A DNA stretch of 64,000 nucleotides from Pseudomonas sp. MPC6 (lineage in GTDB: Bacteria > Pseudomonadota > Gammaproteobacteria > Pseudomonadales > Pseudomonadaceae), in contig NZ_CP034782.1 of the NCBI RefSeq assembly GCF_006094435.1, positions 124,001 through 188,000 of the forward strand. Direction: 5' to 3'. Of this stretch, positions 38,407 to 60,473 are shown one piece after another (positions within the stretch are counted from its first letter, which is position 1; every line of letters starts with the position of its first letter). The position numbers were made by a program, and so were the translations under genes. The notes under the pieces were generated by a model, which made no database searches, had not been told where the DNA came from, and was given only the letters and a program-made list of their open reading frames with translations.

Positions 38407-38692
38407 TAGGCGCTGAAGAGCGAGGCAGCACTTGAAATGCGCTGCACCTAATATGTCCGAATTTCACCCCTCAGTTGGCCGAAAGCACGCTACAGACCCT
38501 TGAGTAGCCGCGATATATTCAGCTCCAGCCAATTAATAATGTCGACTCAATAAGCATGGCTGAGCAGGAGCAACCGTAACTAGTTATCCCGGGGGCATGG
38601 GCTGCAACAACATGATTGGCCAAGTTGAAATGCAGTTCTCCCCAGTTAATAGCTCCATTGCCAACAATAATAATGAGGGGCGGTTGCAGGAG

Positions 38693-39776
38693 CTGAGTGC
38701 AACACGGTTATTGAATCGAAGTGGGAGTATCGTGCCGCATCGCATTGGCCTTTTGCATCACCTCACTCATCACTTCGATCGGACATTTGAAATCGAAGCG
38801 TTTACGTGGGCGCATATTCAGTTGCAAGGCAATGGCATCCAGCTGTTCTTGGCTGTGTCCCGACAAGTCCATCCCTTTGGGCAGGTACTGGCGGATCAGC
38901 CCGTTGATATTTTCATTACTGCCACGCTGCCAAGGGCTGTGCGGGTCGCAGAAGTAAATCGCCACCCCGGTGTTCTGGGTGATCTCGGCATGTCGCGCCA
39001 TCTCTCGGCCCTGGTCGTAAGTCATGCTCCTGCGCATCGCCAGCGGCATGCTATTGAGCGCGGCGCTGAAGCCCTCCATCGCCGAGGTTGCCGTCGCGTC
39101 ATTCATCTTCACCAGCATCAGATAGCCACTGGTGCGTTCCACCAACGTGCCTACGGACGAGGCGTTGGCCTTGCCTTTGATCAGATCACCTTCCCAATGC
39201 CCCGGCATCAGCCGGTCTTCAATCTCCGGCGGGCGCACGTGAATGCTGACCATCTCGGGAATCTGGCCGCGTCGATCCACGCCGCCCGAGCGTGGTCGGC
39301 GGGCCGTTTTGCCTTGGCGCAGACAGATGATCAGTTCCTTGCGCAGTTCGCCGACCGGCAGGGCATAGATCGCGTTATAGATCGTCTCGCGGCAGACGTA
39401 GGCATCTCTAAGGTTGGGAATATTCATGCTGCGTAGCTTGCCGGCAATCTGCTCGGGAGACAAACGCTCGCGCAGCATATGGGCCACCAACTCGAAGCGT
39501 TCACTACCCGGCAACAGCTTTCGCATGGGTCGACAGGTTTGACGGCGGGCATGCATCTGTTGCTGGGCCGCACGGGCTGAGTAACTCCCACAGACCTCTC
39601 GATTGCGGCGCAACTCCCGACTGATGGTCGAGGGAGATCGTTCGATCAGCCGAGCAATCCGACGCTGGCTGAGGCCCTGGACATGACCGATTTGAATGGC
39701 GGCGCGTTCTTCGACGCTGAGTTCGTGATAGGACATGGGGCAGCACCGTACCGGAAAGGTCAGGTGTTGCACTCAG
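38693..39776 (-). mobile_element. IS30-family insertion sequence
   Basis: The element is 1,084 bases with ends sharing CTGAGTGCAACAC inverted at both edges. Beyond that the ends are only partly similar. It carries a complete transposase. It cuts off the 5' part of the DUF2254 gene that resumes at its right edge. Confidence 0.8.
38708..39736 (-). CDS. IS30 family transposase
   Basis: The protein has about 342 residues. The N-terminal HTH reads ELSVEERAAIQIGHVQG and SPSTISRELRRN, and the integrase core includes PGHWEGDLIKG, SMTYDQGREM and SPWQRGSNENINGLIRQYLP. The ATG at 39736 is preferred to an upstream codon in the terminal repeat region. It looks intact. Confidence 0.92.
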   Translation of the reverse strand: MSYHELSVEERAAIQIGHVQGLSQRRIARLIERSPSTISRELRRNREVCGSYSARAAQQQMHARRQTCRPMRKLLPGSERFELVAHMLRERLSPEQIAGKLRSMNIPNLRDAYVCRETIYNAIYALPVGELRKELIICLRQGKTARRPRSGGVDRRGQIPEMVSIHVRPPEIEDRLMPGHWEGDLIKGKANASSVGTLVERTSGYLMLVKMNDATATSAMEGFSAALNSMPLAMRRSMTYDQGREMARHAEITQNTGVAIYFCDPHSPWQRGSNENINGLIRQYLPKGMDLSGHSQEQLDAIALQLNMRPRKRFDFKCPIEVMSEVMQKANAMRHDTPTSIQ

Positions 39777-39795
39777 TTTTTGCCGCCGCCCACTT

Positions 39796-40623: not shown

Positions 40624-40695
40624 TACGACTTATTGAGTGGCTTTTCGCGCAGTAGCATCACCATCCGAAGATTGCAAAAAACCGCGAGCCAACTG

Positions 40696-40839: not shown

Positions 40840-40977
40840 CCGATGGGTGGAACTATCGATGGGCAGTACGGCGACCACATCCTGCTGGCACCGCCGTTCA
40901 TTCTTGAGGACCATCATCTGGATGAGATCGCCGATAAACTCCTGAGCGCCGTGAATATCACGCTCAAAGGTCTGTGA
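40828..40977 (+). pseudogene. class III aminotransferase C-terminal fragment
   Basis: The last 49 residues of an aminotransferase-like protein (GDHILLAPPFILEDHHLDEI) end at a natural stop. The fragment does not resemble the tails of the two intact aminotransferases in the window, so it comes from a third gene. It is followed after 12 bases by a CMD-family gene. Confidence 0.6.
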
Positions 40978-40989
40978 GGGAGTAACGGC

Positions 40990-41556
40990 ATGGCTATTCA
41001 ATCACGACTGACTTCGCTGACCGAAACGCAAATGGATGATGCTCAACGCGCCGTTCTCAGGGAAATTCTCAGCGGCCCGCGAGGCTATCTGGACGGGCCG
41101 TCCTGGCCTGGATTCACAGTCCTTAGCTGGCCAGCCATGCGCAGCGATTGGGTGCGTTCTGTCGCTATAACACTCGGCTGGAATTGCGTTTGACCGAACT
41201 GGCAATCCTGTTCACCGCGTCATGGTGGCAGTCCCAGGCCGAGTGGCAAATTCATAAACCGATCGCGCGCTCGACGGGTTTGTCTGAACCGATAATCGAG
41301 GCGCTGCGTCAGCAGACACTCCCGCAATTCACCAATGAAGATGAACTTCTGGTTTATCGACTGGGCAAGACTCTGGACGAGACTCGTCGTATCGACGACG
41401 CTCTTTATGCACACGCTATTCAATCGTTTGGAGACCCCGCTGTCGTCGAGCTGATAGGTGTCTTCGGATATTACGCATTTGTCGCGATGACGCTAAACGT
41501 CTTCTCTGTTCGCCGTGATTCTGATACACCGTTGCCGTTCGTAGAGCCGCCGGTAT
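40990..41556 (+). pseudogene. carboxymuconolactone-decarboxylase-family gene, frameshifted
   Basis: The first frame (from 40990) gives about 50 N-terminal residues of a CMD/AhpD-type protein. Homology then jumps to another frame near 41148 (GAFCRYNTRLELRLTELAIL) and continues with EWQIHKPIA and YHHA-like helical parts to FVEPP. The frameshift breaks the protein in the middle. After 41556 the frame continues into unrelated sequence. Confidence 0.65.
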
Positions 41557-41588
41557 TAAATGTGCCCCGCAAGCTTACGGGACACATT

Positions 41589-41702
41589 TCATGCGTTGGG
41601 TCGTCGAGCTTCGTCGGTCAACCATTCGATGTATCGGCGTGCCGTATTGCTGAGCACTATCTGGCGCAGCGTCAGCAGGTAATAGACTTGCTCATGACGC
41701 AT
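41589..41702 (-). pseudogene. possible LysR-type regulator tail
   Basis: A 37-residue peptide ending in SNTARRYIEWLTDEARRPNA resembles the last residues of LysR-type regulators. It has no upstream continuation. The match is short and uncertain. Confidence 0.3.
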
Positions 41703-41779
41703 CGTCAACGCTGGGCAGAATGACCATTCAGCCACTGCGCAAGGGCCTCTCGGTGAGCTTCAGGGCGCACAGCGCTTCA

Positions 41780-42724
41780 TCAAAGTCCGAAGTACTGATG
41801 CGCGGCAGCTTTGGCATCCTTGCCGTCAAAGGTGGTCAGTCCATCCAGCCACGGGTCGAGCCACTGCGGATTGCGAGTGATCCAGGCCTTGGCCATTTGA
41901 AGCGGATCTTTCTTATCGAGAATGCCCACCATCAGTTCACTTTCCATCTGAACGTCAAACTTCATGTTGCTGATCAGCTTCGCGGTGTTCGGGCAGCGCT
42001 GGGCATAGTCCGGTGTAGTCACGGTATAGACCGTCGCGGCGCCATAATTGGGGCCGAACACCTGATCCCCTCCGGAAAGGTACGTCATCTTGAATTCCAG
42101 GTTCATCGGGTGCGGAGCCCAGCCCAGGAACAGGATCGCTTTCTCGCGCCTGATCGCCCGCGAAACCTGCATGCGCATCGCCGTCTCACTGGACTCAACT
42201 AACTGGAAGTCACCCAGGCCGTAGAGGTTTTCCTTGATCATTTTTCTCAGCGAGGAGTTGCCACCGCTGCCCGGCTCGATACCATAGATTTTGCCGTCCA
42301 GTTCGTCCTTGAACTTGGCGATATCGGCAAAAGTGCGCAGGCCTTTCTCGGCCAAGAAATCAGGCACGGCCAGGGTGTACTTGGCGCCTGTCAGGTTTGC
42401 CGGTTGCAGCTTGATGATCTTTCCTTCCTTGATCAGTGGCTCCACGGTCGGATCAAGGGCGGGTGACCAGTAATCAAGAAACGCATCCAACTGGCCATTG
42501 TGTATCGAGGCCAGCGCGATCGGCACTGCAACCAGGATTTTGGACGGCTTGTAGCCGATAGCTTCGGCCACGGCCATGGTCAGACCATTGTTCGCCGAGT
42601 TATCGGCCCAGCCAAGATCAGCCAGCCGTACCGCCTGACATTGTGCAGGCTCCGAAGCTGCGAAAATATTATGGGCGAACAGGGCGAGAGCTGCAGCGGT
42701 GAGGCGCAGGGCGGGCTTGTTCAT
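41780..42724 (-). CDS. quaternary-amine ABC transporter substrate-binding protein (CaiX/CbcX-like)
   Basis: This 314-residue periplasmic binding protein has a signal peptide (ending near IFAASEPAQC) and the glycine betaine/choline/carnitine-binding fold. Pocket-type aromatic motifs include LDYWSPALD and LGWAPHPMN. CaiX, CbcX and BetX of Pseudomonas are such orphan proteins, sharing one core ABC permease encoded elsewhere; no permease or ATPase is present here. The truncated CdhR-like regulator just upstream favours carnitine (CaiX), but the ligand is unproven. Confidence 0.85.
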   Translation of the reverse strand: MNKPALRLTAAALALFAHNIFAASEPAQCQAVRLADLGWADNSANNGLTMAVAEAIGYKPSKILVAVPIALASIHNGQLDAFLDYWSPALDPTVEPLIKEGKIIKLQPANLTGAKYTLAVPDFLAEKGLRTFADIAKFKDELDGKIYGIEPGSGGNSSLRKMIKENLYGLGDFQLVESSETAMRMQVSRAIRREKAILFLGWAPHPMNLEFKMTYLSGGDQVFGPNYGAATVYTVTTPDYAQRCPNTAKLISNMKFDVQMESELMVGILDKKDPLQMAKAWITRNPQWLDPWLDGLTTFDGKDAKAAAHQYFGL

Positions 42725-42744
42725 TAATGGACTCCGAGGGTGTC

Positions 42745-43244
42745 TTAAAGGCGAAAGGTGGCGAATGTAGGTTCGTCCTGAGCAAGGATCAACGCGACCA
42801 ACGAACTGCTCAGTTTTGGCGCTTGCCGGTCATATGGATGCCGATTTTCCAAGTGAGCGCGAGTGAGGGGATCGTCTGGCAGGATGTTGCCGAAATGCTT
42901 GCGGTAGGGCTGGAAAACTGAGCACTGGACCCAACGCCGCGCGCCGTGGCGACGCGCTGGATCGACGGAGGTCTTGCCCGCAAGAGTCGATGTGCGTGAC
43001 TCAGGCGTAATTGCCGGCAATAGTGAGAAGGGGAGCAATCAATGTGTGTTTTGAACAAGCGTTCAAGGTGGCGTCGAGACAGGTTCATGGAAGCGGCAAG
43101 TTTGTCAAAATCAATCATCACCGGCAGTTCCTGTTCAAGGCTGGCCAATGCCTGACGCACCTTTAACGGCTGGCGATGGCGCAGTTGTGCAGGCGCGCTG
43201 AAGTCAATCAAGGGGAGGGTGATTCGATTATCTTGAAAGTGCAT
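42745..43244 (-). pseudogene. CdhR/GbdR-type AraC regulator, truncated and frameshifted
   Basis: The frame from 43244 holds the AraC DNA-binding part (FDKLAASMNLSRRHLERLFK). Near 42950 the homology shifts frame and resumes as PYRKHFGNILPDDPLTRAHLENRHPYDRQ. The N-terminal GATase-like ligand domain, about 200 residues, is missing altogether. In Pseudomonas, cdhR lies next to caiX, which this arrangement echoes. The locus has lost this regulator. Confidence 0.75.
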
Positions 43245-43322
43245 GTCTTAATCCTTTATTGTATTTATTGGATTGAACACTTGCAATCGGGATCGAGCGT
43301 TTTGGTTCCTCCTGGAATGAGA

Positions 43323-43350
43323 AGAGGACGGAACATCGGTTCCATCCTCT
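43323..43350 (-). terminator. hairpin after dddD
   Basis: AGAGGA-x-GGAAC pairs with GTTCC-x-TCCTCT around a four-base loop, about 10 bases after the dddD stop. A single mismatched pair interrupts the stem. The following bases are T-rich but not a pure T-run. Confidence 0.5.
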
Positions 43351-43358
43351 GGCAGTGC

Positions 43359-45875
43359 TTAGCTAGGAAGGAACTCTTTGGCCCAGCCCAGGCTGGCGAT
43401 GTTGCGTTCGATCATCGAATTAACCTCGGCCTCGCTGTAACCCATTTCGGCCAATACTTCGCGGGTGGAATGGCCCCAGCGCTCTGGCAGAGTGACTGCC
43501 TTGATGCTGGCCTCACTCGGCCGGATCGCCAGGTGGTCGATCTGGGTCAGGCAATGGCCGCTGGGGTGCTCTGGGTGAACCGAGAAAGCAACGCTGCCAA
43601 GGTCGATACCGACGGTGCCGTCGCCATCTCGGCTGTAAAGCTCGCGCAAGGTTTCAATCGATAGTGGTTCCGCCGCGGCGATATTGGCTGCCTGCAGTTG
43701 TTCAGCCCAGTAAGCCGCTGGAGCGGATTGAAGGGCGGTTTTGAGGAACACGCCAACATCCGCCGCCGAGCGGATACCGGCTAGGCCCTCGATGCGTTCA
43801 AGCTGCGGTAGCTCGGCAGCGTTGGAGTCAAGGTAGAGCCAGCCCTCGGCGGTTTTGTAGAAATGCGACAGGGCATTGTGGCCCAGCACTTCGCGGCCTG
43901 AAGGTTCATTGAACGGCGCACGCCCAGCATAATCGAAGGCGAAAGACAGCTGCGCCAGGTTCGTGATGGCCGACAGCGAAGTACGCGATCGTGTCGCCTG
44001 ACCAGTCTTCATCTTGTGGTAGATCGATACCGCCATGCCCAGGCCGGCAGCGAAACCGCAGTTGACGTCCAAGGTGCCGAGGTGAGCGTGCTCCTCCGGG
44101 GTCTGTGGGCCCCCAAAACGGCTCATGATGCCGCTGTGCGCCTGGATGATGTCGTCATAGCCGATGTAGTTGCTTTTTGGTCCGGGCAGTGGGCCGCCGA
44201 GACAGTCCAGGCGGCAGAACAGCACGCCCGGATTGACCGCCTGCAGGCTGTCGTTGTCCAGCCCCAGGGCTTTGAGCTGGCGATCAGCGGCGTTGATCAC
44301 CACCATGTCCACCGAGCGCACCAGGCGGTTGAACACCTCGCGGCCTTCGGCGCTCATAATGTCGACCAGCGCACTGCGCTTGCCCATGCCGGTCTGGAAG
44401 GTGAATAGGGTGCCAATCAGCGGGTCGTACATGGGTTTGACGGTGTCGAGCTTGATCACCTCGGCACCGAAACGGGCAAGGAACGCAGTCGAATGGGGGC
44501 CGGCGATCACGTTGGTGAGGTCAAGGATGCGCAGCCCGTCGAGCCAACCGGTATCGCTTGCCGCCTGCACAGCATCACCAACCGGGAAGCTGGTCGGATG
44601 AGCGGCAGCGACCTCACGCAGTTCGGCCAGCGCTTCGGCGAAGCTGACGGTCTTGCGTGGACGTGGCGTGACCATCTGCTCGGCGCATTCTTCCAGCCAG
44701 GCGAAGGGTCCAGGCTGCTTCATCAGGCCGTATTCAGGGTCGTTGACCTCTACAATCAGGCCCGCTGTGTTGGTGTGCTCGTGATTGACCCACTCTTGGG
44801 TGGTGCGGTGTGGCGCGCCGGGAATCTGGCCTTCGCCGAAGATCGTGCCCCACTCCTCGGACGTCTTGGTCAGGAAGGCCTGCTTCATCTTCGCCGAGAT
44901 ATGGTCGGCCCACTTTTTCGGTAGCGGGTAGACACCGATGGAGGTCTCACCGTCCCACTCGCTGATCGGAGCGTGTAGATCGTTGACTTCCGGTAGGCCA
45001 TCGGCGACCAGCTCGTCGTAGATCCCCAGTACCTGCAGGGCGCGTTTGGCGTGATTCCGGTGGGACGGGCAAACGCAATAGAACATGCGGTCGTCGGAGC
45101 ACTTATAGGTGCGGTAGAAGGGATCGAGGTATTCCTGCAGGTCCTCGTAGCTGAGATCCATCGCAATGTTATTGGCCTTGCGGTGCTCGATTTCCAGCTC
45201 GCGCATGGTCTTGTACCGTTCGGGCAGGCCTTCAATAACATAGGAGTTATACGACAAGCCTTCCATAAGTGCAGAAATCACCGGCACTTCAATAGCATCA
45301 CCGCGACCAGTGCGCTCGCGGGCCTGCAGGGCGAGGGCGACGGAGGCAGCAGCCAGAGTGGTGGCGTAGGCCGAGCCTAATGGCAGTGGTGAGAAGCTTG
45401 GATTTAGGCCCAGCAACACGCGGTTGAATCCCATGTCAGTGAAGGCCCCAGCTGTTGCGGCTACCACGGCTTCGGTTGCTTTCCAGTCTCGGCGCAGTTC
45501 GTCGTTGCTGGCAAAACCCGGCACCGATAGGGTGATCAGTTCAGGGCGGGCTTCACGCAGTTCGGTGAAGTCAATGCCCAGTTTCTGCATGACGCCGGGG
45601 CGGAAACTTTCAATGACGATGTCCGCCTGTTCGATCAGCGCTAGGGCCTGAGCCAAGCCCTCCGCGGACTTGAGGTCCAAGCGCAGGCAGCTTTTATTGC
45701 GGTTGAGCACAGCATTAGCCGGGTGATCCCACTGTGGGCCTTGCGGAGGGTCGATATGTACCACGCTGGCACCCAGGTCAGCGAGGGTCATGGCCACGGC
45801 CGGGGCGGCGATCTGCTGGCCGAAGTCGACAACGCGAACACCGGTCAAAGGCAATTGATTGTTGTTGTTGTTCAT
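43359..45875 (-). CDS. dddD: DMSP CoA-transferase/lyase DddD
   Basis: The protein has 838 residues and consists of two class III (CaiB/BaiF) CoA-transferase domains in tandem, about 8-400 and 445-800. This rare layout and size are those of DddD, which attaches CoA to dimethylsulfoniopropionate and releases dimethyl sulfide, leaving a 3-hydroxypropionyl product. An Asp at residue 603 (HLGTLDVNCGFAAG) is where the second domain's catalytic Asp is expected. The gene faces away from a BCCT transporter, an iron alcohol dehydrogenase, a semialdehyde dehydrogenase and a LysR gene, the classical dddTBCR order. That context makes a carnitine CoA-transferase role much less likely. Confidence 0.9.
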   Translation of the reverse strand: MNNNNNQLPLTGVRVVDFGQQIAAPAVAMTLADLGASVVHIDPPQGPQWDHPANAVLNRNKSCLRLDLKSAEGLAQALALIEQADIVIESFRPGVMQKLGIDFTELREARPELITLSVPGFASNDELRRDWKATEAVVAATAGAFTDMGFNRVLLGLNPSFSPLPLGSAYATTLAAASVALALQARERTGRGDAIEVPVISALMEGLSYNSYVIEGLPERYKTMRELEIEHRKANNIAMDLSYEDLQEYLDPFYRTYKCSDDRMFYCVCPSHRNHAKRALQVLGIYDELVADGLPEVNDLHAPISEWDGETSIGVYPLPKKWADHISAKMKQAFLTKTSEEWGTIFGEGQIPGAPHRTTQEWVNHEHTNTAGLIVEVNDPEYGLMKQPGPFAWLEECAEQMVTPRPRKTVSFAEALAELREVAAAHPTSFPVGDAVQAASDTGWLDGLRILDLTNVIAGPHSTAFLARFGAEVIKLDTVKPMYDPLIGTLFTFQTGMGKRSALVDIMSAEGREVFNRLVRSVDMVVINAADRQLKALGLDNDSLQAVNPGVLFCRLDCLGGPLPGPKSNYIGYDDIIQAHSGIMSRFGGPQTPEEHAHLGTLDVNCGFAAGLGMAVSIYHKMKTGQATRSRTSLSAITNLAQLSFAFDYAGRAPFNEPSGREVLGHNALSHFYKTAEGWLYLDSNAAELPQLERIEGLAGIRSAADVGVFLKTALQSAPAAYWAEQLQAANIAAAEPLSIETLRELYSRDGDGTVGIDLGSVAFSVHPEHPSGHCLTQIDHLAIRPSEASIKAVTLPERWGHSTREVLAEMGYSEAEVNSMIERNIASLGWAKEFLPS

Positions 45876-46578
45876 TTCACTGATCCCTCTAAGAGCGCTT
45901 CAGTCCGTGGCCAAAACAGCCAGGGTGGACATGGTGTTGAGTGTTCAGCGGGCCGTTATCACGGTGCCGAGTAATAATCGCCGAAAATAAAAATTAACTT
46001 ACAGGCACTAAATGATGGGGCTTCTAAAATTGCGGCCAAGCCAGATTCTGGGTCGCTCTCTGTTCATCGTGGCGCTTGTTAGTAATGACCTTTATTTCGG
46101 TACTGCCGATACTAAGAATTAATATGTTCATGGACCAGCAAAAAAAAATTGGCCTTAGACAGGGTTTTGCTTATGGCTGAAACGGGGCGTGTAATTACGC
46201 CGATGTTCTACTGCTCGGAAAGAAGCCTGCTAGCGCCGGATAGCATGGCGTGACGCTCAGAGAAACCCGCGAGCCATAAAAAATAATGGGTCAAAGGTCA
46301 CTATTTTATTGCTTCTCAAGGTCTTTTATCTTCATAACAATAGGTTTCGTATCGATTTAAGGCCTTTAACGAGTCAAACGATTCGAGAAGCATGTCTCGA
46401 CCGGGCTGCGCACATGACCTGGCTAGTAATGCAGGGGTACGCAGTGGCATAGCCGGCTGGAGCTTGCAGGTTCTCACATGGTTCGCGTGATCGACGCGGA
46501 TGCGAGAGTTAACCAACAGCTATAGAGGTGTACGATGAAAATAAATATAAGAAACTCGCACATGCAGAGGGGCGGGCA
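45876..46578. other. divergent dddD/dddT control region
   Basis: About 700 bases without a credible gene separate two divergent catabolic genes, so both promoters and the regulator sites must be here. A partial dyad (TTTAAGGCCTTTAA) lies near 46355-46370. I could not fix a LysR box or promoter boxes with confidence. Confidence 0.5.
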
Positions 46579-48207
46579 ATGACTGATCAAGTAAACAAAC
46601 TGCCTTCGTCCGGGCCATTTGTAGACGCTAGCCCCGTGATGTCTATTGGTGCGGCGCTATTGGTTGTTGCTTTTGTCTTATTTACCGTGCTGCAACCAGA
46701 ATATGCTGGACATCTATATGGTGCGGCCAAGGATTTTATTTCAACTAAGTTGGGCTGGTATTACATCGGGCTGATGAGTTTCTTTCTGTTCGTTGCTGTC
46801 TGGCTGATTTTCAGTCGGTATGGAAATATTCGTCTGGGTCAGGACAGCGATCGGCCAGAATTTAGTAACTTCTCCTGGTTCGCCATGTTGTTCGGTGCCG
46901 GTATCGGCATCGGTATTCTGTTCTGGAGCATCGCGGAGCCTATCAATCACTATCAGGGCAACCCGCTGATTGGCGATGCACAGAAAATGACCGCAGCAGC
47001 CGCGCAGGTGGCGATGCGCATCTCAATCTTCCATTGGGGGCTGCATGGCTGGGGCCTGTTTGCGATGTTCGGCCTGATGCTGTGCTACTTCACATATCGC
47101 AAAGGCCTGCCGCTGTCGATTCGTTCCACTCTCTATCCGTTACTGGGCGAGCGTATCTACGGCCCACTGGGCCATGCCGCCGATCTACTGGCAGTATTCG
47201 GTACGGTGTTTGGTATCGCCACATCGCTAGGTCTAGGCGCACAGCAGATGAACGCTGGGCTGAACTACCTACTGGGCTTCGAGATTTCGGTCAGCAACCA
47301 AATCCTGCTGATCGCGGTAATCTCGGTGATCGCTACGGCGTCGGTGCTCAGCGGCGTGAACAAGGGTATTCGCATGCTCAGCGAGCTGAATATGCATCTC
47401 ACCATCCTGATTCTGGCGCTGTTTGTAATCTTCGGTCCGACAGCCTACCTGCTCGGCGCCTTCGTCACCAACATCGGTGATTACTTGGTTCATGCGGTTG
47501 AGTTGGGGATGTGGGTCGATCCTGATCCTAAGGGTCAATGGCAGGGGTGGTGGACCATTTTCTACTGGGGGTGGTGGATTGCTTGGGCGCCCTTTGTCGG
47601 CATGTTCATCGCGCGTATTTCTAAAGGTCGGACCTTGCGTGAGTTTGTCCTTGGTGTGCTGATCGCGCCGACTGTACTGGCGGCCTTCTGGATCACCATG
47701 TTCGGTAATAGTGCGATCTACATCGAGTTGTTCGGCGGTGGAGGAGTGACTGCAGCAGTCAACGAAGACATCACTATGGCGCTGTTCAAGACCATTGAGC
47801 TGATGAGCCTTGGTCAGTGGTTGAGCCTTCTGATGTCAGCAATCTGCACCCTGATGCTGGTGACCTACTTCGTCACCTCGGCAGACTCGGCAACGTTGGT
47901 AATCTGCACCCTGATCTGTATGGGCAACCAACACCCGCCTGCGCGCTACCGGATCTTCTGGGGCCTAGCGATTGGTGCCGTGGCGGCGGTGTTACTGCTC
48001 GCCGGGGGGCTAAAAGCCTTGCAGACGGCCTCGATCGTGGCGGCTCTGCCAATCTCATTCGTCGCCCTATTAGCCTTATATGGCTTCTTCAAGGCGCTTC
48101 GCCATGAGGTTGTGCGAACCGATTTGGCAGCCAGCTACGAGAATGCCGAAACCCAACAGGTGTCAGCACACCTAAAACCAGCGGTCGCCACCTCCGTCAC
48201 GACCTGA
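46579..48207 (+). CDS. dddT: BCCT-family osmolyte transporter DddT
   Basis: The protein has about 542 residues and twelve membrane helices. The BCCT family signature FYWGWWIAWAPFVGMF is followed by ARISKGRTLREF. It would bring DMSP (or betaine) into the cell by ion symport. The ATG at 46579 is chosen because GAGGGGCGG lies just before it; the upstream frame is not helical. It is the first gene of the plus-strand ddd operon and is divergent from dddD. Betaine or choline uptake is an alternative. Confidence 0.88.
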   Translation: MTDQVNKLPSSGPFVDASPVMSIGAALLVVAFVLFTVLQPEYAGHLYGAAKDFISTKLGWYYIGLMSFFLFVAVWLIFSRYGNIRLGQDSDRPEFSNFSWFAMLFGAGIGIGILFWSIAEPINHYQGNPLIGDAQKMTAAAAQVAMRISIFHWGLHGWGLFAMFGLMLCYFTYRKGLPLSIRSTLYPLLGERIYGPLGHAADLLAVFGTVFGIATSLGLGAQQMNAGLNYLLGFEISVSNQILLIAVISVIATASVLSGVNKGIRMLSELNMHLTILILALFVIFGPTAYLLGAFVTNIGDYLVHAVELGMWVDPDPKGQWQGWWTIFYWGWWIAWAPFVGMFIARISKGRTLREFVLGVLIAPTVLAAFWITMFGNSAIYIELFGGGGVTAAVNEDITMALFKTIELMSLGQWLSLLMSAICTLMLVTYFVTSADSATLVICTLICMGNQHPPARYRIFWGLAIGAVAAVLLLAGGLKALQTASIVAALPISFVALLALYGFFKALRHEVVRTDLAASYENAETQQVSAHLKPAVATSVTT

Positions 48208-48327
48208 GTGGCAGCAGCACCCTGCGCGCCAGGGACCGCAGTTTACTTTATCAAACGATCACCACGGCAAGGGGCGCGCACTGATTACGCTCCCCACTGC
48301 CTGTCCCCCGGAATTAGCGGAGTTGCC

Positions 48328-49485
48328 ATGTCTACTCAAGTAATCCTTCCTCGCATCATGCAAATCGGCGAGGACGCCAGCCAGGACATTCACATCGTGA
48401 TGGCTAACCTGGGCTGCAGCCGACCATTGATCATCACGGATCAGATGATGGTCAAACTCGGTTATGCCGGACGCATCCAGCAGCGCCTGGCGCGCGAAGG
48501 CATAAGCGCCGAAGTGTTCGACGAGACGGTGCCAGAGCCAACGGTCGCCTCGATCCAGGCCGGCGTGGCCAAGGCACGCGAGGGCGATTACGACTGCATC
48601 ATCGCCCTCGGTGGCGGCAGCCCAATCGACAGCGCCAAGGCCATCGCCATCCTCGCCAAGCACGGTGGCGAAATGCGCGACTATAAGTTTCCGCGAATCG
48701 TCGTCGAATCGGGTCTACCAATCATCGCAGTGCCAACCACCGCTGGCACCGGCTCTGAAGTCACCCGGGTGACCATCATCGCCGACGAGAAAACCGATGA
48801 GAAAATGCTCTGTGTCGGCATCGGTTTTATGCCGGTGGCAGCGCTTATCGACTTCAGCCTGACCCTCAGCCTGCCGCCGCGCATTACCGCTGACACTGGT
48901 ATCGACGCGCTTACCCACGCCATGGAAGCCTACGTCAGCAAGAAGGCCAGCTTGTATAGCGACAGCCAGGCCCTGCAAGCCATGCGCTTGATCGGCCCGA
49001 ACCTGCGCCGTGCCTATCACGATGGCGCGGACAAGGCGGCGCGTGAAGCCATGATGCTGGGCTCGACCTTGGCCGGGGTGGCCTTTTCCAACGCTTCAGT
49101 GGCATTGGTACACGGCATGAGCCGGCCAATTGGCGCTCATTTCCATGTACCTCACGGCTTGTCCAACGCCATGTTGCTGCCCAGCGTCACGGCGTTCTCC
49201 ATCCCTGCGGCAGCCGAGCGGTACGCCGATTGCGCTCGCGTCATGGGGGTGGCCGCTGCTACCGACAGCATAGAGGTGGCCAACGCCAAGCTGCTCTACG
49301 AACTGCGCGCGCTTAACGATGAGTTGCAGGTGCCCAGTCCCGCGCAGTTCGGGATAGATCGCGAGCAGTTCTTCGCCAAACTGCCGGTCATGGCCGAGCA
49401 GGCGCTTGCTTCTGGATCGCCGAACAACAACCCACGGGTCCCAAGCGCGGAAGAGATCATCGAGATCTACAAGCAGCTCTGGTAA
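48328..49485 (+). CDS. dddB: iron-containing alcohol dehydrogenase DddB
   Basis: The protein has about 385 residues. The NAD-binding GGGSPIDSAKAIAILA and TTAGTGSEVT motifs, and the metal-site HGMSRPIGAHFHVPHG, mark group III alcohol dehydrogenases. In DMSP pathways DddB oxidises 3-hydroxypropionate to malonate semialdehyde. The ATG at 48328 is preferred, with GGAG upstream and the usual N-terminus. It begins 120 bases after dddT and 61 bases before dddC. Confidence 0.88.
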   Translation: MSTQVILPRIMQIGEDASQDIHIVMANLGCSRPLIITDQMMVKLGYAGRIQQRLAREGISAEVFDETVPEPTVASIQAGVAKAREGDYDCIIALGGGSPIDSAKAIAILAKHGGEMRDYKFPRIVVESGLPIIAVPTTAGTGSEVTRVTIIADEKTDEKMLCVGIGFMPVAALIDFSLTLSLPPRITADTGIDALTHAMEAYVSKKASLYSDSQALQAMRLIGPNLRRAYHDGADKAAREAMMLGSTLAGVAFSNASVALVHGMSRPIGAHFHVPHGLSNAMLLPSVTAFSIPAAAERYADCARVMGVAAATDSIEVANAKLLYELRALNDELQVPSPAQFGIDREQFFAKLPVMAEQALASGSPNNNPRVPSAEEIIEIYKQLW

Positions 49486-49546
49486 CCATTTTCTTAGCCA
49501 TGCCCGGCGGCAAACCGCCAGCCCCCTTTAATGAGGCACACCCGTT

Positions 49547-51043
49547 ATGAACACAGTAGGACATCTGATCAATGGCCGTATCGTCAACGACGCAGCCCGC
49601 CTGCAGGACGTGTACAACCCCTCCACTGGCGAGGTCAGCAAGCAGGTGGCGCTGGCTTCAAAGGCCACCGTCGAGCAGGCCATCAGTGCGGCCGAGGCCG
49701 CTTTCCCCGAGTGGCGCAACACCCCGCCAATGAAGCGCGCACGGGTGATGTTCCGCTTCAAGGAGTTGCTTGAGCAGAATGCTGAGCGTATCGCCCAGAT
49801 GATCGGCGAAGAACACGGAAAGATAGCCCATGACGCCCTCGGCGAGCTGCAGCGCGGTATTGAAAACGTGGAATATGCGTGCGGCGCTCCCGAGCTGTTG
49901 AAGGGCGAGCACAGCAAGAACGTCGGTCCGAACATCGACTCTTGGAGCGAGTTCCAGCCGCTGGGGGTGGTCGCCGGTATCACACCGTTCAACTTCCCGG
50001 CGATGGTGCCGCTTTGGATGTTCCCCATGGCCATCGTCTGCGGTAACTGCTTCATCCTCAAGCCATCCGAGCGCGACCCTAGCTCCACCCTGTTTATTGC
50101 TCAGTTGCTGCAGGAAGCCGGGCTGCCGGACGGCGTAATGAACGTAATTAACGGTGACAAGGAAGCGGTCGATACGCTGCTCGGCGATGAGCGCATCCAG
50201 GCTATCAGTTTTGTAGGGTCAACACCGATTGCCGAGTACATCTACAAGACCGCTACCGCCAACGGCAAGCGCTGCCAGGCTTTGGGCGGAGCGAAGAACC
50301 ACGCCATCGTGATGCCCGATGCCGACATGGACAACGCGGTAAACCAGCTCCTCGGCGCCGCGTTCGGCTCCTCCGGCGAGCGTTGCATGGCGTTGTCGGT
50401 GGCCGTTGCGGTGGGCGATGCTGCAGCCGATGCACTGGTCGAGAAGATGCGAGCCGCCATGCAGTCACTGAAGGTCGGAGCCTATTCAGAAAAGAGCAAC
50501 GACTTCGGTCCCGTGATCACCAAAGCGCATCAAAAGAAGGTGGTGGGCTACATCAATAGCGCCGAAGAGCAGGGCGCCAAGGTGGTCGTTGATGGCCGCA
50601 ATCCGCAGGTGGCCGGGCATGAGAATGGCTTTTTCGTTGGCGGCACGCTGATCGACAATGTGCAGTCAGAGATGCTCAGCTACAAGGAAGAAATCTTCGG
50701 TCCAGTGCTGCAGGTAGTACGCGTGAGGAGCATGCAAGAGGCTATGGACCTGATCGATGCCCATGAGTATGGTAACGGCACTTGTATCTTCACCCGCGAC
50801 GGCGAGGCGGCACGCTACTTCTCCGACAACATCAAAGTCGGTATGGTTGGGATCAACGTGCCGCTGCCCGTGCCAGTGGCGTACCACAGCTTCGGCGGTT
50901 GGAAGCGTTCGCTTTTCGGCGACTTGCACGCCTATGGCCCTGATGCCGTGCGCTTCTACACCAAGCGCAAGACTATCACTCAGCGCTGGCCGTCCGCCGG
51001 AGTGCGCGAAGGTGTCTCCTTTTCTATGCCGACCATGAAGTAA
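49547..51043 (+). CDS. dddC: CoA-acylating methylmalonate-semialdehyde dehydrogenase type DddC
   Basis: The 498-residue aldehyde dehydrogenase resembles MmsA. The catalytic Cys is in SSGERCMALS, and the CoA-type landmarks TPFNFPAMVPLWMFPMA and FGGWKRSLFGD are present. It converts malonate semialdehyde to acetyl-CoA and CO2, completing conversion of the C3 part of DMSP to central metabolism. A strong terminator follows at 51085, so dddTBC forms one unit. Confidence 0.9.
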   Translation: MNTVGHLINGRIVNDAARLQDVYNPSTGEVSKQVALASKATVEQAISAAEAAFPEWRNTPPMKRARVMFRFKELLEQNAERIAQMIGEEHGKIAHDALGELQRGIENVEYACGAPELLKGEHSKNVGPNIDSWSEFQPLGVVAGITPFNFPAMVPLWMFPMAIVCGNCFILKPSERDPSSTLFIAQLLQEAGLPDGVMNVINGDKEAVDTLLGDERIQAISFVGSTPIAEYIYKTATANGKRCQALGGAKNHAIVMPDADMDNAVNQLLGAAFGSSGERCMALSVAVAVGDAAADALVEKMRAAMQSLKVGAYSEKSNDFGPVITKAHQKKVVGYINSAEEQGAKVVVDGRNPQVAGHENGFFVGGTLIDNVQSEMLSYKEEIFGPVLQVVRVRSMQEAMDLIDAHEYGNGTCIFTRDGEAARYFSDNIKVGMVGINVPLPVPVAYHSFGGWKRSLFGDLHAYGPDAVRFYTKRKTITQRWPSAGVREGVSFSMPTMK

Positions 51044-51084
51044 CTGGCCATACCATGCCGACGGAAAAACCGCTGGCAATCGCA

Positions 51085-51116
51085 GGCCACGTCCCGTGTC
51101 GGGACGTGGCCTTTTT
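51085..51116 (+). terminator. intrinsic terminator after dddC
   Basis: A perfect 12-base stem GGCCACGTCCCG / CGGGACGTGGCC with a three-base loop is followed by TTTTT. This is the best terminator in the window and ends the dddTBC transcript. Confidence 0.92.
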
Positions 51117-51170
51117 GCGTTTCAGTCCGGTCTAAAGGTCAGGCATGGCACGCTAAGTGGGAGAAGTACG

Positions 51171-51947
51171 ATGACCGAAAAAGGATCCTCAATCACCCGG
51201 GTAATGGAGATCATCGAAGCGGTGGCGCGGGCGCAGCGGCCGATGTCACCGGCCGACCTGGCTGACCAGCTGAGCATTCCAAAACCAAGCATCCATCGCC
51301 TGCTGGCCCAACTCGAAGGTGAGGGTTACCTGCAAAGTAATATGCGCGGGCTGCTGGAGCCCGGTGACCGCCTTCACGAGGTAGCTCTGGGCGTTCTTTA
51401 CAGTGGACGTTTTAAGGCCCCGCGCCAGGCAATTCTGAAACGCCTGACAGCGATCATCGGCGAAACCTGCGGGATCGCCATTCCAAATGGCACCGAGATG
51501 ATCTACTACGACCGCGTGCAGACCGAATGGCCGCTGCAAGTCTACCTGCCGGTGGGTAGCCACACACCAACCTGGTGCACCTCCAGCGGCAAGCTCTACC
51601 TCAGCTCGCTGCCGCGTGAACGGCGCTTGCGCATCCTCAACAACCTGCCGCTACGTCAGTACGCGCGTAACACCCTGACCGATGCCGCTGCGCTAGAAAC
51701 CGCGTTGTTGAAAATCAGAGTGGATGATCTGGGTACCGATAATGAAGAATTTGTCGATGGTCTGGTAGCCTGTGCAGTACCCGTCAAAGATCGGCATGGC
51801 AGGCTCTTCGCGTGCCTGTTCACTCATGCACCACTGCTGCGCAAGAGCCTGGACGAGTTGCTGAGCTATGTCCCGCTATTACGCGAGGCGGCCACTGAGC
51901 TGGGCCAACTGATCGATCATGCGGACGATGAAACAATCAAGGTGTAG
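51171..51947 (+). CDS. IclR family transcriptional regulator
   Basis: The protein has about 258 residues. The N-terminal winged helix (MSPADLADQLSIPKPSIHRLL) is followed by the IclR effector domain (RVQTEWPLQVYLPVGSHTPTWCTSSGKLYLS). The ATG at 51171 has GGGAGAA in front. It lies after the dddC terminator and 8 bases before the LysR gene, so the two regulators are probably co-transcribed. An IclR gene in this place is not part of the usual dddTBCR order. It could sense 3-hydroxypropionate, acrylate or a related acid. Confidence 0.9.
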   Translation: MTEKGSSITRVMEIIEAVARAQRPMSPADLADQLSIPKPSIHRLLAQLEGEGYLQSNMRGLLEPGDRLHEVALGVLYSGRFKAPRQAILKRLTAIIGETCGIAIPNGTEMIYYDRVQTEWPLQVYLPVGSHTPTWCTSSGKLYLSSLPRERRLRILNNLPLRQYARNTLTDAAALETALLKIRVDDLGTDNEEFVDGLVACAVPVKDRHGRLFACLFTHAPLLRKSLDELLSYVPLLREAATELGQLIDHADDETIKV

Positions 51948-51955
51948 CCACTGCC

Positions 51956-52882
51956 ATGAAAAAAAGACTCCCGCCGTTGAATTGGCTGCGCGCGTTCGAG
52001 GCGTCGGCCCGACACCTGAACTTTACCCAGGCAGCCGCCGAACTGAGTCTGACCCAGGCGGCTATCAGTCAGCAGGTCAAGGGACTGGAATCTCAGCTCG
52101 GGACCAACCTGTTCAAACGCCTGCCCCGAGGACTGGAGTTAACCGAGGCCGGCCAAGCCTACATGCCAGTCATCCATGATTCGATCGAACGCTTGGCCGC
52201 CGCCACCGACGAGCTGTTCGGCCAGGGGCGTAAGCGGCCGATCACCGTGCGCGCCAACCTGGTGTTCTTTACCACTTGGTTGGCTCCCCGACTTGGGCGC
52301 TTTCGCGCCGCGCACCCGGATGTCGGTCTGCATTTCACCAGCAATATATGGCTGGATGAGCGCGGCAAGGAAGTCGATATGGAGATACGCTACGGCAAGG
52401 GTAACTGGGCCGGTTTGCGGTCGGTACAACTCACCCACGATGAACTGTTTCCGGTGTGCAGTCCGCAGCTGTTGAGCGGTGATCCGACGCCCGTCAGTCC
52501 AGGCGTACTGAATGCGGACAGCATGCTGCATGTGATCGGCTACGAAGAAGGCTGGGGCTACTGGCTGAACAAGACAGGCTTCCAGTACGTCGATGCTTCG
52601 CAAGGCATGCAGTTCGACACACTGATCACTGCGTTGGAGATGGCGGTGCGGGGCCATGGCCTAGCCTTGGGGCGCACCTCGCTTGTCGCGGAAATGCTGG
52701 CAGATGGACGTCTGATCGCACCTTTTGAACAGCGTATACCCGCATCAGAAGCTTTCCACTTGAGTCGCCCAAGCCATATACACTTGTCGGCTCAAGGCGA
52801 GAAATTTTGGGGTTGGTTAGTAAAAGAGTCGACACAATCAACTGACAGCGATTATGCATTGGCGGGTCAACGCCCACATTGA
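51956..52882 (+). CDS. dddR: LysR family regulator in the dddR position
   Basis: The protein has 308 residues with a GcvA-like N-terminus (LNWLRAFEASARHLNFTQAAAELSLTQAAISQQVKGLE cut short here) and a standard effector domain. It sits where DddR lies in dddTBCR clusters, so it probably activates dddD and dddT in response to a DMSP breakdown product. Eight bases separate it from the IclR stop. The last 30 residues run up to an IS3 relic that begins seven bases after the stop. They look somewhat unusual, so the extreme C-terminus may have been altered. Confidence 0.8.
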   Translation: MKKRLPPLNWLRAFEASARHLNFTQAAAELSLTQAAISQQVKGLESQLGTNLFKRLPRGLELTEAGQAYMPVIHDSIERLAAATDELFGQGRKRPITVRANLVFFTTWLAPRLGRFRAAHPDVGLHFTSNIWLDERGKEVDMEIRYGKGNWAGLRSVQLTHDELFPVCSPQLLSGDPTPVSPGVLNADSMLHVIGYEEGWGYWLNKTGFQYVDASQGMQFDTLITALEMAVRGHGLALGRTSLVAEMLADGRLIAPFEQRIPASEAFHLSRPSHIHLSAQGEKFWGWLVKESTQSTDSDYALAGQRPH

Positions 52883-52888
52883 ATTCAG

Positions 52889-53556
52889 GTTCGGCGGTGT
52901 ACGCCGAGCCGTTATCGCTTAGCCATTTCACAGGCGTTGTCGGCAGTTGATCACTAAAGCGCTTCTCCACGCTTTCCAGCATCAAGTCGGGGATATCATC
53001 ACCGCTGTATCCGGTAGAGCTGGCGACCCAGCCGATGGCTTCGCGATCACAGCAGTCCAGAGCGAAGGTCACGCTCAGTTTTGCGGCTCCTCGCAGCGGA
53101 ACTCAACGCCATCTGAGCACCAACGTGTATTGCTGGTTTTCACCGCAATACGGCCTTCGTGCCGACGCGGCACGCCGGGCTGTTTGATTCGGCGCTCAAG
53201 CAGCAAGTTGTGATCACGCATCACCCGGTAGACCCGCTTCACATTGATCGCGGGGAGCAACTGGGTTTCATGGGCGTGACGCAGCAACCCCAACCCCAAC
53301 CCCAACCCCAGACACGACGGTAGCCATAGCTGGGCAGTTCGCTGACTTGTTGCTGTATTTCGACCACCAACTCAGTGTCATTCACCAGCCTGCTTCGCCG
53401 TTTGGCGATGCCGATTGCTTGATTCGAACCGTTAAGTGCGAGCGCGCCACACCGAGACATTCGCTGACCAGCTTCAATGGTCGTCCCCCGGCAACAATTG
53501 ATCAGGGGTTGGTGGGTACGGTTGATCGGGAAATGGCCCTCCAGGAAAGCTAACAC
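52889..53556 (-). pseudogene. IS3-family (IS2-type) OrfB transposase, decayed
   Basis: Parts of an IS3 integrase appear in separate frames. The N-terminal helical domain (RSRLVNDTELVVEIQQQVSE, near 53360) is followed by VKRVYRVMRDHNLLLERRIK and NTRWCSDG. The DDE core has TFALDCCDREAIGWVAS and WLSDNGSAYTAE. The gene stops before the third catalytic acid. A block of AACCCC repeats at 53286 lies at the first break. Confidence 0.8.
53286..53309. repeat. (AACCCC)4 hexanucleotide repeat in the IS3 relic
   Basis: Four perfect AACCCC units lie inside the decayed transposase, at the junction of two fragments (reading VWGWGWGWG on the minus strand). This looks like slippage expansion. Confidence 0.85.
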
Positions 53557-53613
53557 TGCCTGACCATCAGCGAAGAGAACGATCTGGAGCAGGACGCTCG
53601 AGACAAAACTGCA

Positions 53614-54177
53614 TCAACGCGGGGCTATTTTGAACGGTCGCTCAAGATTGTTTTCCGGATCAAACTGGCGCCGTCCGGTGTGATTCAGATGCCGGCCATA
53701 CACATGAAACGAAAGGCTGGTGTGCTCGGTTTCATTGATCACACTGTGAATACTCCCGGTTGGCAAAAGTAGCGCCTCTCCAACTGTGATGCATTGCTCA
53801 CCCATTAGCTGCAGCTCGGCGTATCCAGGACGTTGCGCATCGTCCAAGCGCTGCCAAAACAGGTTGCGTTCCGTGCCATCGACACCCACCACCACCGCCC
53901 ATGTATCGTGGTCATGGGGCGGCACACCACGCCCGGGTAGCCAGCTATCGACCACCACGAATAATGACTGGTCGGGCTCGACGTGTAACTGCGTCGTGCC
54001 ATAGCCCAGTTCTGAGTCGGCCTCATACATATCGGCACTTAGCCAACTACGCTTTTGCACCATTCGCTGGACTATAGGTCCGACTTGCGCAAGCAGTTCG
54101 GCCTCATCCGCCACCTCATGCACAACTTTCCGTAGTTCCACGACAAAACTCTGTATATCGTCCTGTTGCGGTCCCAT
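53614..54177 (-). CDS. cysteine-dioxygenase-like cupin (thiol dioxygenase)
   Basis: The protein has about 187 residues of the type I cysteine dioxygenase family. The motif PPHDHDTWAVVVGVDGTERN provides two iron-binding His. Downstream are YAELQLMGEQ and a third His in TGSIHSVINETE. The bacterial subgroup includes 3-mercaptopropionate dioxygenases as well as cysteine dioxygenases. The ATG at 54177 with GGGGAAG is preferred over the TTG at 54183. In a DMSP locus a mercaptopropionate substrate is attractive, since it arises by full demethylation of DMSP, but the specificity is inferred. Confidence 0.72.
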   Translation of the reverse strand: MGPQQDDIQSFVVELRKVVHEVADEAELLAQVGPIVQRMVQKRSWLSADMYEADSELGYGTTQLHVEPDQSLFVVVDSWLPGRGVPPHDHDTWAVVVGVDGTERNLFWQRLDDAQRPGYAELQLMGEQCITVGEALLLPTGSIHSVINETEHTSLSFHVYGRHLNHTGRRQFDPENNLERPFKIAPR

Positions 54178-54235
54178 CTTCAACTTCCCCTTTTGGTCGA
54201 TCTAGGCAAAGCGATTCGCCTGCCACACTGGCCAA

Positions 54236-54261
54236 CGGCCTGCCTCCGAAGAGGTAGGCCG
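54236..54261 (-). terminator. hairpin after the second BCCT gene
   Basis: CGGCCT-A-CCTC pairs with GAGG-C-AGGCCG around TTCG, about 17 bases after the stop codon. A single mismatch interrupts the stem and no T-run follows. The gene downstream on the same strand may still be read through. Confidence 0.45.
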
Positions 54262-54278
54262 GCTTGCCCGAAGCAATC

Positions 54279-56064: not shown

Positions 56065-57312
56065 TTACAACCAGTCCTCCTGCCATGGATAATTTGAAAG
56101 CACTTCGCAACCGTGGTGGGTGATTAAAACTTGCTGTTCAAGCTTGATACCTTCCTTCCCTCCTCGTTCGCCCATATAACTTTCCACGCAAATCACCATA
56201 TTCTCTTCGAAAACACCGTCATAACCACTGCTGTCCCAATCAGCGCCTTTATGCGCCAGTGCCGGGTATTCGTCGGCCAGACCAACACCATGCACCACAC
56301 AGCAGTAACGATTGTGCTGATAGGGCTGTGGAATATCCCAGGAACGCTGAACGAACTCGTGATGGCTCAGGCCAGGGCGCAAGAGCGCCATGTTGTGCTG
56401 AATCTGCTCATGGGCCAGCGCATATAGTTTGCGCTGCTCGGCCGTGGGGGCAACGTGACCGACGGTCCAGGCGCGCGAGATATCCGCGCAATAGCCATAG
56501 GGGCCGATCAGATCAGTGTCGAAGGAAATGATTTCACCTTCCTGCATCACCCGATCGCTGGACTCCTGCATCCACGGGTTGGTTCTAGGCCCCGAGGCCA
56601 GCAGGCGGGTTTCGATCCACTCTCCACCGTGGCGGATATTCTCGTAGTGCAGCCAAGCCCACAGTTGGTTCTCGGTCATGCCCGGACGCTGCTCATCATG
56701 CATGCGTTGAATGCCTTTCTCGCACACCTCGATGGTCCAGCGCATCAGTTCCAGTTCAGCGGCTGATTTAATCTTGCGCGCCTCCTCCATCAGACTGTGC
56801 CCCTCGACCAGGGTCAACCCCTGAGCCTGAAGTAACTCAAGCCCTTCGAAGTCCGCCTTGTCCACGGCAAGGCGCGCGTTGGCACCAGCATACTCGCGCA
56901 TCACTTCGACAATTTCACGGGCCCAAATGGCAGCCTTCTCGGTTATGCGCGAACCGGCGCCGAAATAACTCCAACTGACCGCTTCGCGCACTTCATCGAT
57001 CAGGCTGATGCCTTCGTGCAGGTGTTCGCAATTGTGGAACTCCCACAAGATCACTGGCCCATTGGCGAACACCAGGGCGTAACGAGCGAAGTTGTGCAAG
57101 GTCCACACCTGCATGTTCGAGGTATCAGTGGCGTAGCGGATATTGACCGGATCATAGAGCAGGATGGCGGCATAATCGCGCGCCAGTAACTGATCGCGCA
57201 CCCGCTGCAAGCGATAGGCACGCGCCGCCTGCAGTGTTTCCAGAGTGACGGGGTTGTGCAAGGGTTGCGTGGAGTAATCGCCAGTACGGTATTTATTCTT
57301 ATTTTCGAACAT
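56065..57312 (-). CDS. dddP: DddP-like M24-family DMSP lyase
   Basis: The protein has about 415 residues with the M24 (pita-bread) fold. Numbered from ATG 57312, Asp265, Asp267 and Asp277 are in FDTDLIGPYGYCAD. His341 and Asp347 are in VVHGVGLADEYP, Glu377 in CVESY and Glu392 in IKLEQ. The DxD pair with the third Asp twelve residues on, plus an Asp six residues after the His, are the metal and catalytic positions I know for DddP. Ordinary M24 peptidases have a single Asp and an Asp eleven residues on, and a His-x-x-x-His form. DddP cleaves DMSP to acrylate and DMS. A peptidase-like relative with another substrate is possible. Confidence 0.78.
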   Translation of the reverse strand: MFENKNKYRTGDYSTQPLHNPVTLETLQAARAYRLQRVRDQLLARDYAAILLYDPVNIRYATDTSNMQVWTLHNFARYALVFANGPVILWEFHNCEHLHEGISLIDEVREAVSWSYFGAGSRITEKAAIWAREIVEVMREYAGANARLAVDKADFEGLELLQAQGLTLVEGHSLMEEARKIKSAAELELMRWTIEVCEKGIQRMHDEQRPGMTENQLWAWLHYENIRHGGEWIETRLLASGPRTNPWMQESSDRVMQEGEIISFDTDLIGPYGYCADISRAWTVGHVAPTAEQRKLYALAHEQIQHNMALLRPGLSHHEFVQRSWDIPQPYQHNRYCCVVHGVGLADEYPALAHKGADWDSSGYDGVFEENMVICVESYMGERGGKEGIKLEQQVLITHHGCEVLSNYPWQEDWL

Positions 57313-57364
57313 GCTTTCAGTTCCGTTAATCGCAATAGGAGAAAGGAAGGTCAACCATTTAGTT

Positions 57365-58666: not shown

Positions 58667-58766
58667 TGCGCAGCCTCGTCAATGATGTGTGCGTTAGATT
58701 GCAAGCTGCAACGTTGCCGCCCCATGACATCGCTCTGTACATTTTGCATTGCACTGCGCTCCCGAC

Positions 58767-60463: not shown

Positions 60464-60473
60464 GGTACTGCCC

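Follow-up and report, generated by a model that had tools for sequence, protein, structure and literature searches.

A large Pseudomonas plasmid with a DddD-type gene cluster for DMSP catabolism and a conserved 42-bp repeat as candidate DddR operator

Does a gene for a two-domain CoA-transferase in Pseudomonas sp. MPC6 belong to a complete pathway for the catabolism of dimethylsulfoniopropionate (DMSP) and, if so, how might that pathway be controlled and how did it come to lie where it does? The gene, dddD, is located in a stretch of 64,000 nucleotides (the window) that corresponds to bases 124001-188000 of contig 3 in a 7.2-Mb genome of four contigs. We conclude, with a probability of roughly 0.93, that this part of a large plasmid carries all the genes of a DddD-type cluster for DMSP catabolism, with the pathway and regulation proposed below. 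The gene lies opposite a divergent operon, dddT-dddB-dddC-iclR-lysR, and thus shows the arrangement of the Marinomonas/SAR92 type of ddd cluster, in which dddD is divergent from dddTBC and a LysR regulator is present. All six genes are open reading frames (ORFs):

43359..45875, minus strand: dddD, 838 amino acids, two CoA-transferase III domains, Asp603
45876..46581, no strand assigned: dddD-dddT divergent regulatory region, up to the inferred dddT ATG
46528..48207, plus strand: ORF of dddT, BCCT transporter, likely start ATG 46582
48208..49485, plus strand: ORF of dddB, iron-containing alcohol dehydrogenase, likely start ATG 48328
49547..51043, plus strand: dddC, MmsA-type semialdehyde dehydrogenase (TIGR01722, 674.3 bits, cut-off 448.5)
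51096..51947, plus strand: ORF of the IclR-family regulator gene, likely start ATG 51171
51956..52882, plus strand: LysR-family regulator, DddR candidate, C-terminal tail altered

The ORF starts of dddT, dddB and iclR are probably over-long, the ATG codons at 46582, 48328 and 51171 being those suggested by relatives. An earlier annotation of this DNA, the original prediction, had described a two-domain CaiB-type protein of 838 residues with an aspartate at 603, lying divergent from BCCT, iron-alcohol dehydrogenase, MmsA and LysR genes. The protein is as described and the divergent genes are all present, but the IclR gene (51096-51947) had been missed.

At 838 residues the DddD protein has the length of two fused CoA-transferase III domains (about 830-840 amino acids), and PF02515 matches it in two stretches (363.6 bits). 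It is 89% identical to the proteins of P. benzenivorans (P0009) and P. taeanensis (P0012), 79% identical to that of Pseudomonas sp. A9 and 73-78% identical to proteins of Neptunomonas, Marinobacter, Endozoicomonas, Marinomonas MED121 and Pseudovibrio (handles in P, L and G denote proteins, loci and genomes of our comparisons). According to the parts of the reports available, isolates identified as P. benzenivorans and P. taeanensis carry dddD, show DMSP lyase activity and grow on DMSP (PMC9327192), and Endozoicomonas acroporae, whose protein (P0067) is 75% identical to that of the window, releases dimethyl sulfide and has an inducible dddD (PMC7174347). Asp603, which lies within HAHLGTLDVNCG, is found in all 19 aligned proteins and in all 43 DddD-like rows of the tree set, and the N-terminal-domain position that aligns with it in a two-sequence MAFFT alignment is a tyrosine, not an aspartate. 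We take the catalytic aspartate of Marinomonas DddD to be Asp602, in the C-terminal domain.

A phylogeny had been suggested by the original prediction as a check on its DMSP assignment. In a quick tree of the C-terminal domain, with long branches among the single-domain rows, the DddD rows, the window protein among them, stand apart from 15 single-domain class III CoA-transferases (of 17 loci entered, those passing a length filter of 370-480 amino acids) with a Shimodaira-Hasegawa-like approximate likelihood ratio (SH-aLRT) of 100, and the window protein groups with those of P. guineae, a Pseudomonas metagenome-assembled genome and G130 (support 100). A PDB search was less informative: none of its 35 matched sequences is named DddD, the best being formyl-CoA transferase. 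The tree placement, the high identity to DddD of DMSP-growing species and the poor score of a carnitine model (given below) leave the DMSP assignment well supported. The cluster is also as uncommon in the genus as had been supposed: among 398 Pseudomonas genomes, an even draw from a larger group, 16 encode a DddD-like protein (E <= 1e-150), and eight of the 398, the source genome included, encode DddD of the window's 88-95% identity clade. Four genomes (G159, G081, G263 and G401) carry, besides an 88-91% copy, a second DddD-like protein (L153-L156) that is 47% identical, keeps the aspartate and groups in the tree with a Dinoroseobacter shibae plasmid protein.

The steps of the DddD pathway are established, and the genes of the window would supply each of them. 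DddT would import DMSP, and DddD, by way of Asp603 in its C-terminal domain, would transfer CoA to it; dimethyl sulfide would be released and 3-hydroxypropionate, free or as its CoA ester, would remain. DddB would then convert 3-hydroxypropionate to malonate semialdehyde, from which DddC would form acetyl-CoA and CO2. Regulation of both divergent operons probably falls to the LysR protein, which would respond to DMSP or 3-hydroxypropionate and act through two sites, boxes A and B, described below; the IclR protein may provide a second control.

Clusters of this kind are already known. The first to be described was reportedly dddD-dddTBCR of Marinomonas sp. MWYL1 which, compared here through the part of its description available, likewise has dddD divergent from dddTBC and a LysR regulator; other Marinomonas stretches, unlike the window, showed no close iclR. 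The order with iclR has been published for SAR92: in the part of the report available, SAR92 strains carry dddTBC-iclR-lysR, with dddD, dddB and dddC responding to DMSP, and strains H921 and H231 share the genes, divergent order and both regulators of the window (PMC10746254). The DddD of H921 (L054) is 72% identical to that of the window, whose cluster differs in being in Pseudomonas, on a plasmid and flanked by insertion sequence (IS) elements. As far as the available part of that study goes, DddD clusters with the same dddD, dddT, dddB and dddC are also present in Pseudomonas isolates identified as P. benzenivorans, P. leptonychotis and P. taeanensis (PMC9327192), the 89% DddD identity applying to two of these species.

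More widely, dddB, dddC and lysR adjoin dddD in most of 80 related loci, kept from 113 candidates in one scan of GTDB genomes; counts of upstream regions given here use 79 or 78 of the 80, according to length filters. A close iclR homologue was found in 24 of 79 regions scored, its carriers being three of the four named Pseudomonas loci (in the fourth, L022, the contig ends inside dddC), SAR92/Porticoccaceae and a few others, and none was found in the Marinomonas, Marinobacter, Neptunomonas and Endozoicomonas stretches examined. The LysR protein of the window is 57-69% identical to LysR proteins of Marinomonas ddd clusters and is a candidate DddR.

Where might such a regulator act? Alignment of five Pseudomonas dddD-dddT gaps revealed conserved islands, and the gap of the window contains two copies of a 42-bp inverted repeat, AGCMATAAAA-N22-TTTTATKGCT, which we call the ddd box:

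46137..46178, no strand assigned: ddd box A, 3 mismatches to the pattern
46272..46313, no strand assigned: ddd box B, 0 mismatches
46095..46111, plus strand: TTTCGGTACTGCCGATA, partly conserved element of the window's Pseudomonas dddD clade
46331..46356, plus strand: TTCATAACAATAGGTTTCGTATCGAT, further conserved island in the five aligned Pseudomonas gaps

The repeat emerged from k-mer counts in 78 dddD-upstream regions, in which AGCAATAAA occurs in 46 and CATAAAAAA in 40, whereas no 9-mer occurred in more than 7 after shuffling; together the two form a single inverted repeat, its arms a constant 22 nt apart. At three mismatches or fewer the box is present in 56 of the 78 regions (84 sites), with no sites in 20 dinucleotide-shuffled sets and none for the reversed pattern, whilst the rest of the same loci (1.53 Mb) holds three sites, two of them beside lysR. 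The spacer is constrained too: at two mismatches or fewer there are 65 sites at a spacer of 22 and no more than five at any other from 14 to 30.

Because the pattern was derived from these 78 regions, loci outside the set carry more weight. There, the box is found at three mismatches or fewer in all eight clade II (60-62%) Pseudomonas dddD loci (L002, L146-L152), without mismatch on a Paraburkholderia plasmid and, with a single mismatch, before an iron-containing alcohol dehydrogenase gene on the plasmid pF045_1; no box was listed at up to four mismatches for the alphaproteobacterial plasmid loci L189, L191 and L192. Within the set, it is present at three mismatches or fewer in 16/16 Marinomonas and 4/4 Marinobacter regions and, at that threshold, was not found in those of Pseudovibrio (0/3), Halomonas, Limimaricola, Larsenimonas, Martinezella, Cohaesibacter and Litorivicinus or in 9 of the 17 Porticoccaceae regions. 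A literature search, in which subscription journals were poorly covered, found neither a mapped DddR site nor a description of the repeat. In the available part of a study of AcuZ (formerly DddZ), the LysR regulator of the dddD cluster of Halomonas sp. D47, that protein binds 3-hydroxypropionate and the sequences reported, AATTGATT and TATA-N8-GATA, are unlike the ddd box, footprinting there having been inconclusive (PMC13104084).

Other upstream sequences were weighed as well. TTTCGGTACTGCCGATA is exact in 8 of 192 loci, all in the window's dddD clade, and absent from L139-L142 of that clade; it is possibly the site of a second regulator. TTTCGGTANNGCCGATA was dismissed as a general IclR box of the clusters that carry iclR, since exact copies occur in 4 of 79 upstream regions, all of them from Pseudomonas, and TTATGGCTG alone was rejected as the ddd box, occurring in 11 of 78 regions only.

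On balance, we favour the reading that the 42-bp box is the operator of DddR in gamma- and betaproteobacterial dddD loci, its two copies controlling the dddD and dddT operons. LysR/DddR is the best candidate for the binding protein because boxes occur where lysR but no close iclR is found, in Marinomonas and Marinobacter. In Pseudomonas, the box would join choX-like binding-protein genes, and a further BCCT gene close to a diverged DddD, in a single DMSP regulon. It could then be used as a signature for DMSP genes, and cluster and box together would form, on the plasmid, a self-contained DMSP unit that moves horizontally. Further boxes (two to four mismatches) lie 174-176 nt before the ORF starts of choX-like genes, in 5/5 such genes in three dddD genomes (L204-L206), and others precede a dddT-like BCCT gene near the 47% DddD paralogue (L207, L208). 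These stretches, with a sixth (L203), were chosen for their boxes or paralogues and are not a random sample. Another site is listed at G159:C1:1498167. The choX gene of the window has no box upstream (best match, eight mismatches), and the source genome has only two further matches at three mismatches or fewer, both on contig 4.

One negative result weighs against this reading: the T-N11-A core of LysR-type operators is not conserved within the box (no T(i)/A(i+12) column pair with both at 50% or more). Against the proposal for the cluster as a whole, no sigma-70-type promoter was found at 45800-46620. The less likely, though still serious, alternative is that IclR or some other protein binds the box, or that it acts structurally, for example as a bidirectional terminator. 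The outer arms do fit bidirectional terminators: at two mismatches or fewer they match in 133 of the 398 Pseudomonas genomes, namely all 16 with a DddD-like protein and 117 of the 382 without, and the outer-arm pattern alone was discarded as a genome-wide test because terminators match it too. Of 75 forward matches sorted for an inner stem, among those listed, 5 of the 17 from dddD genomes have one of at least six pairs, including a clade II dddD site (G166) and a choX site (G159), and the strong site L203 (G159:C1:4110768, one mismatch) is not at an obvious 5' end. Matches without an inner stem of six pairs, however, make up 12/17 in dddD genomes as against 3/58 elsewhere, and the boxes of the ddd loci lie between divergent 5' ends. 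Moreover, complementarity at the inner positions 13-21 is rare among the 83 distinct ddd sites (0 to 0.39 per pair), so that as a set these are not terminators; the Marinomonas and Marinobacter boxes speak likewise against IclR. We therefore retain the box as a candidate DddR operator.

How did the cluster come to be in this strain? Contig 3 measures 328,214 bases and yielded no tRNA in a scan of 15 pieces and the window, together covering the contig. Genes for a Rep3 initiator, a Ter protein, KfrA, ParA and ParB lie towards its ends, and a PF03432 relaxase is encoded at 63 kb. A P. veronii record of 374 kb is similar to one end piece of the contig (84.9% identity, covering 34% of the query). 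The ddd cluster is carried on a 328-kb plasmid. No overlap was found between the ends of the contig, nor any match to the relaxase family PF07514 in the source genome, and a PF10412 coupling protein lies on contig 2, not contig 3. By contrast with the plasmid-borne copy of the window, copies of its dddD clade in the single-contig genomes G159 and G206, and at L023 (a record titled chromosome), are chromosomal. Group II intron matches (L120, L123-L124; G000:C3, about 27 kb and 97-105 kb) were also seen on this plasmid contig, of which the first 120 kb were covered.

The block 43355-52853 aligns in one piece with Pseudomonas loci L021 and L024 at 83% DNA identity, the homology ending at dddD and near the end of lysR (52853). 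In gyrB, the nearest of the compared dddD genomes are G135 (92.3%), G355 (91.4%) and G002 (90.8%), which carry DddD of another clade, 60-61% identical in amino acid sequence (61% for G135). Because the homology stops at dddD and lysR and the nearest gyrB relatives lack this type of DddD, horizontal acquisition from a marine-Pseudomonas lineage is likely. The alternative that the cluster was inherited vertically and then moved from chromosome to plasmid within the lineage is improbable. Three of the seven other genomes of the dddD clade (G081, G281 and G401) do count against acquisition, their dddD DNA identity (81.3-81.7%) being not above that of gyrB (81.9-82.5%); vertical descent fits poorly, however, with the other-clade DddD of the nearest gyrB relatives and with G130, in which dddD (86.7% DNA, 94.9% amino acid) is more similar than gyrB (81.8% and 88.8%).

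A search of 72,556 plasmid records with dddD gave 41 matches at E <= 1e-100, 30 of them from Agrobacterium, Rhizobium, Shinella, Sinorhizobium or Ensifer and one from Pseudomonas. The latter (79.4%) is pF045_1 (L131, NZ_CP115240.1, 19998-22511), from a P. aeruginosa cystic fibrosis isolate, in which an IS66 element lies between dddD and the alcohol dehydrogenase gene, whose ddd box remains in place; no dddT or dddC is annotated in the 42.5-kb stretch examined there. The cluster of the window is flanked by the following features:

38678..39791, minus strand: IS30-family element, 28-nt inverted ends
41780..42724, minus strand: choX-type substrate-binding protein gene, downstream of dddD
52854..53593, minus strand: degenerate IS3 remnant abutting lysR, limits approximate (rve match, homology limits, IS3 annotation of a matched record)

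We considered and rejected a composite transposon bounded by paired copies of the same IS: IS30 elsewhere on the contig amounts to a 118-nt match only, and the region 36800-54000 showed no direct repeats of at least 18 nt. A DUF2254 gene (39796-40623, plus strand) without its N-terminal part (profile positions 141-367 of 368) adjoins the end of the IS30. A 144-amino acid ORF between dddD and choX (42810-43244, minus strand) matches only the C-terminal part of GbdR-type AraC regulators and is apparently a fragment of one. An MFS gene at 30714-31946 (minus strand) encodes a protein 76-80% identical to the MFS protein encoded directly downstream of dddD in L021-L024, but sits about 11 kb from dddD in the window.

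The IS3 remnant raises the possibility, which we judge slighter still than vertical descent, that the plasmid cluster is decaying and abnormally regulated, the insertion having changed the end of the LysR gene. The final LysR residues do differ from those of relatives as the gene runs into the remnant, at the point where homology stops, and this tells against intact regulation. All six genes are open, however, LysR retains its DNA-binding domain and most of its effector domain, and its C-terminal tail varies among relatives too.

The transporter matches PF02028 (618.8 bits) and is adjacent to dddD, as expected by linkage for a DddT, yet it scores higher against the solved BCCT transporters for trimethylamine (446.8 bits) and choline (401.6 bits) than against the solved DddT (265.9 bits). 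This counts against the assignment, and DMSP specificity therefore rests on place in the cluster. In the available part of one report, BCCT substrates are described as hard to infer by sequence alone, with DddT homologues grouping near D2 DddT or near BetP (PMC13270143). That the two-domain protein is instead a CoA-transferase for another betaine such as carnitine, which the cluster would then degrade, is very improbable: the fold family does include carnitine CoA-transferases and the BCCT protein has the affinities just given, but the L-carnitine model PRK03525 scores 105.8 bits against a cut-off of 413, the tree and the 89% identity place the protein with DddD, and DddB and DddC suit the oxidation of 3-hydroxypropionate.

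Beyond the IS3 remnant, positions 53594-64000 encode a thiol dioxygenase-like protein, BCCT, DddP-like M24, MFS, DAO, rubredoxin reductase, aldehyde dehydrogenase and Rieske proteins, in what looks like a betaine-demethylation cluster; a second copy, 93.7% identical, lies on contig 4 of the same genome. Two of its members deserve mention:

53614..54183, minus strand: thiol dioxygenase-like protein, best PDB matches mercaptosuccinate and 3-mercaptopropionate dioxygenases
56065..57354, minus strand: DddP-like M24 protein, 3.2 kb beyond lysR

The first has no Pfam or NCBIfam match. The best PDB matches of the second are 4b28 (E 2.5e-104), which we take to be the DddP structure of PMC4108388, and 4rzy (E 1.1e-100). 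All nine DddP residues checked are kept, the equivalents of the metal ligands and of Tyr366/Asp377 being D279, D281, D291, Y350, H355, D361, E391 and E406; ligand assignments other than Tyr366, Asp377 and Asp295 are presumed. Those three are named for DddP in the part of the source available (PMC4108388). The protein scores 440.4 bits against the NCBIfam DddP equivalog, below the cut-off of 600, and for this reason we call it DddP-like only; it is a possible second DMSP lyase. Two more DddP-like M24 copies occur in the source genome (G000:C4:2254536-2255822 and G000:C3:216002-217165), 95% and 49% identical respectively.

The gene cluster itself is ordinary, DddD clusters in DMSP-growing Pseudomonas having been published already. 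Its carriage on a plasmid, together with the discordant histories of dddD and gyrB, offers a concrete route by which DMSP catabolism may spread among pseudomonads. The conserved box is a directly testable candidate operator that points to further DMSP uptake genes and, if it is indeed the DddR operator, it would provide a sequence signature with which as yet unknown DMSP genes could be found.

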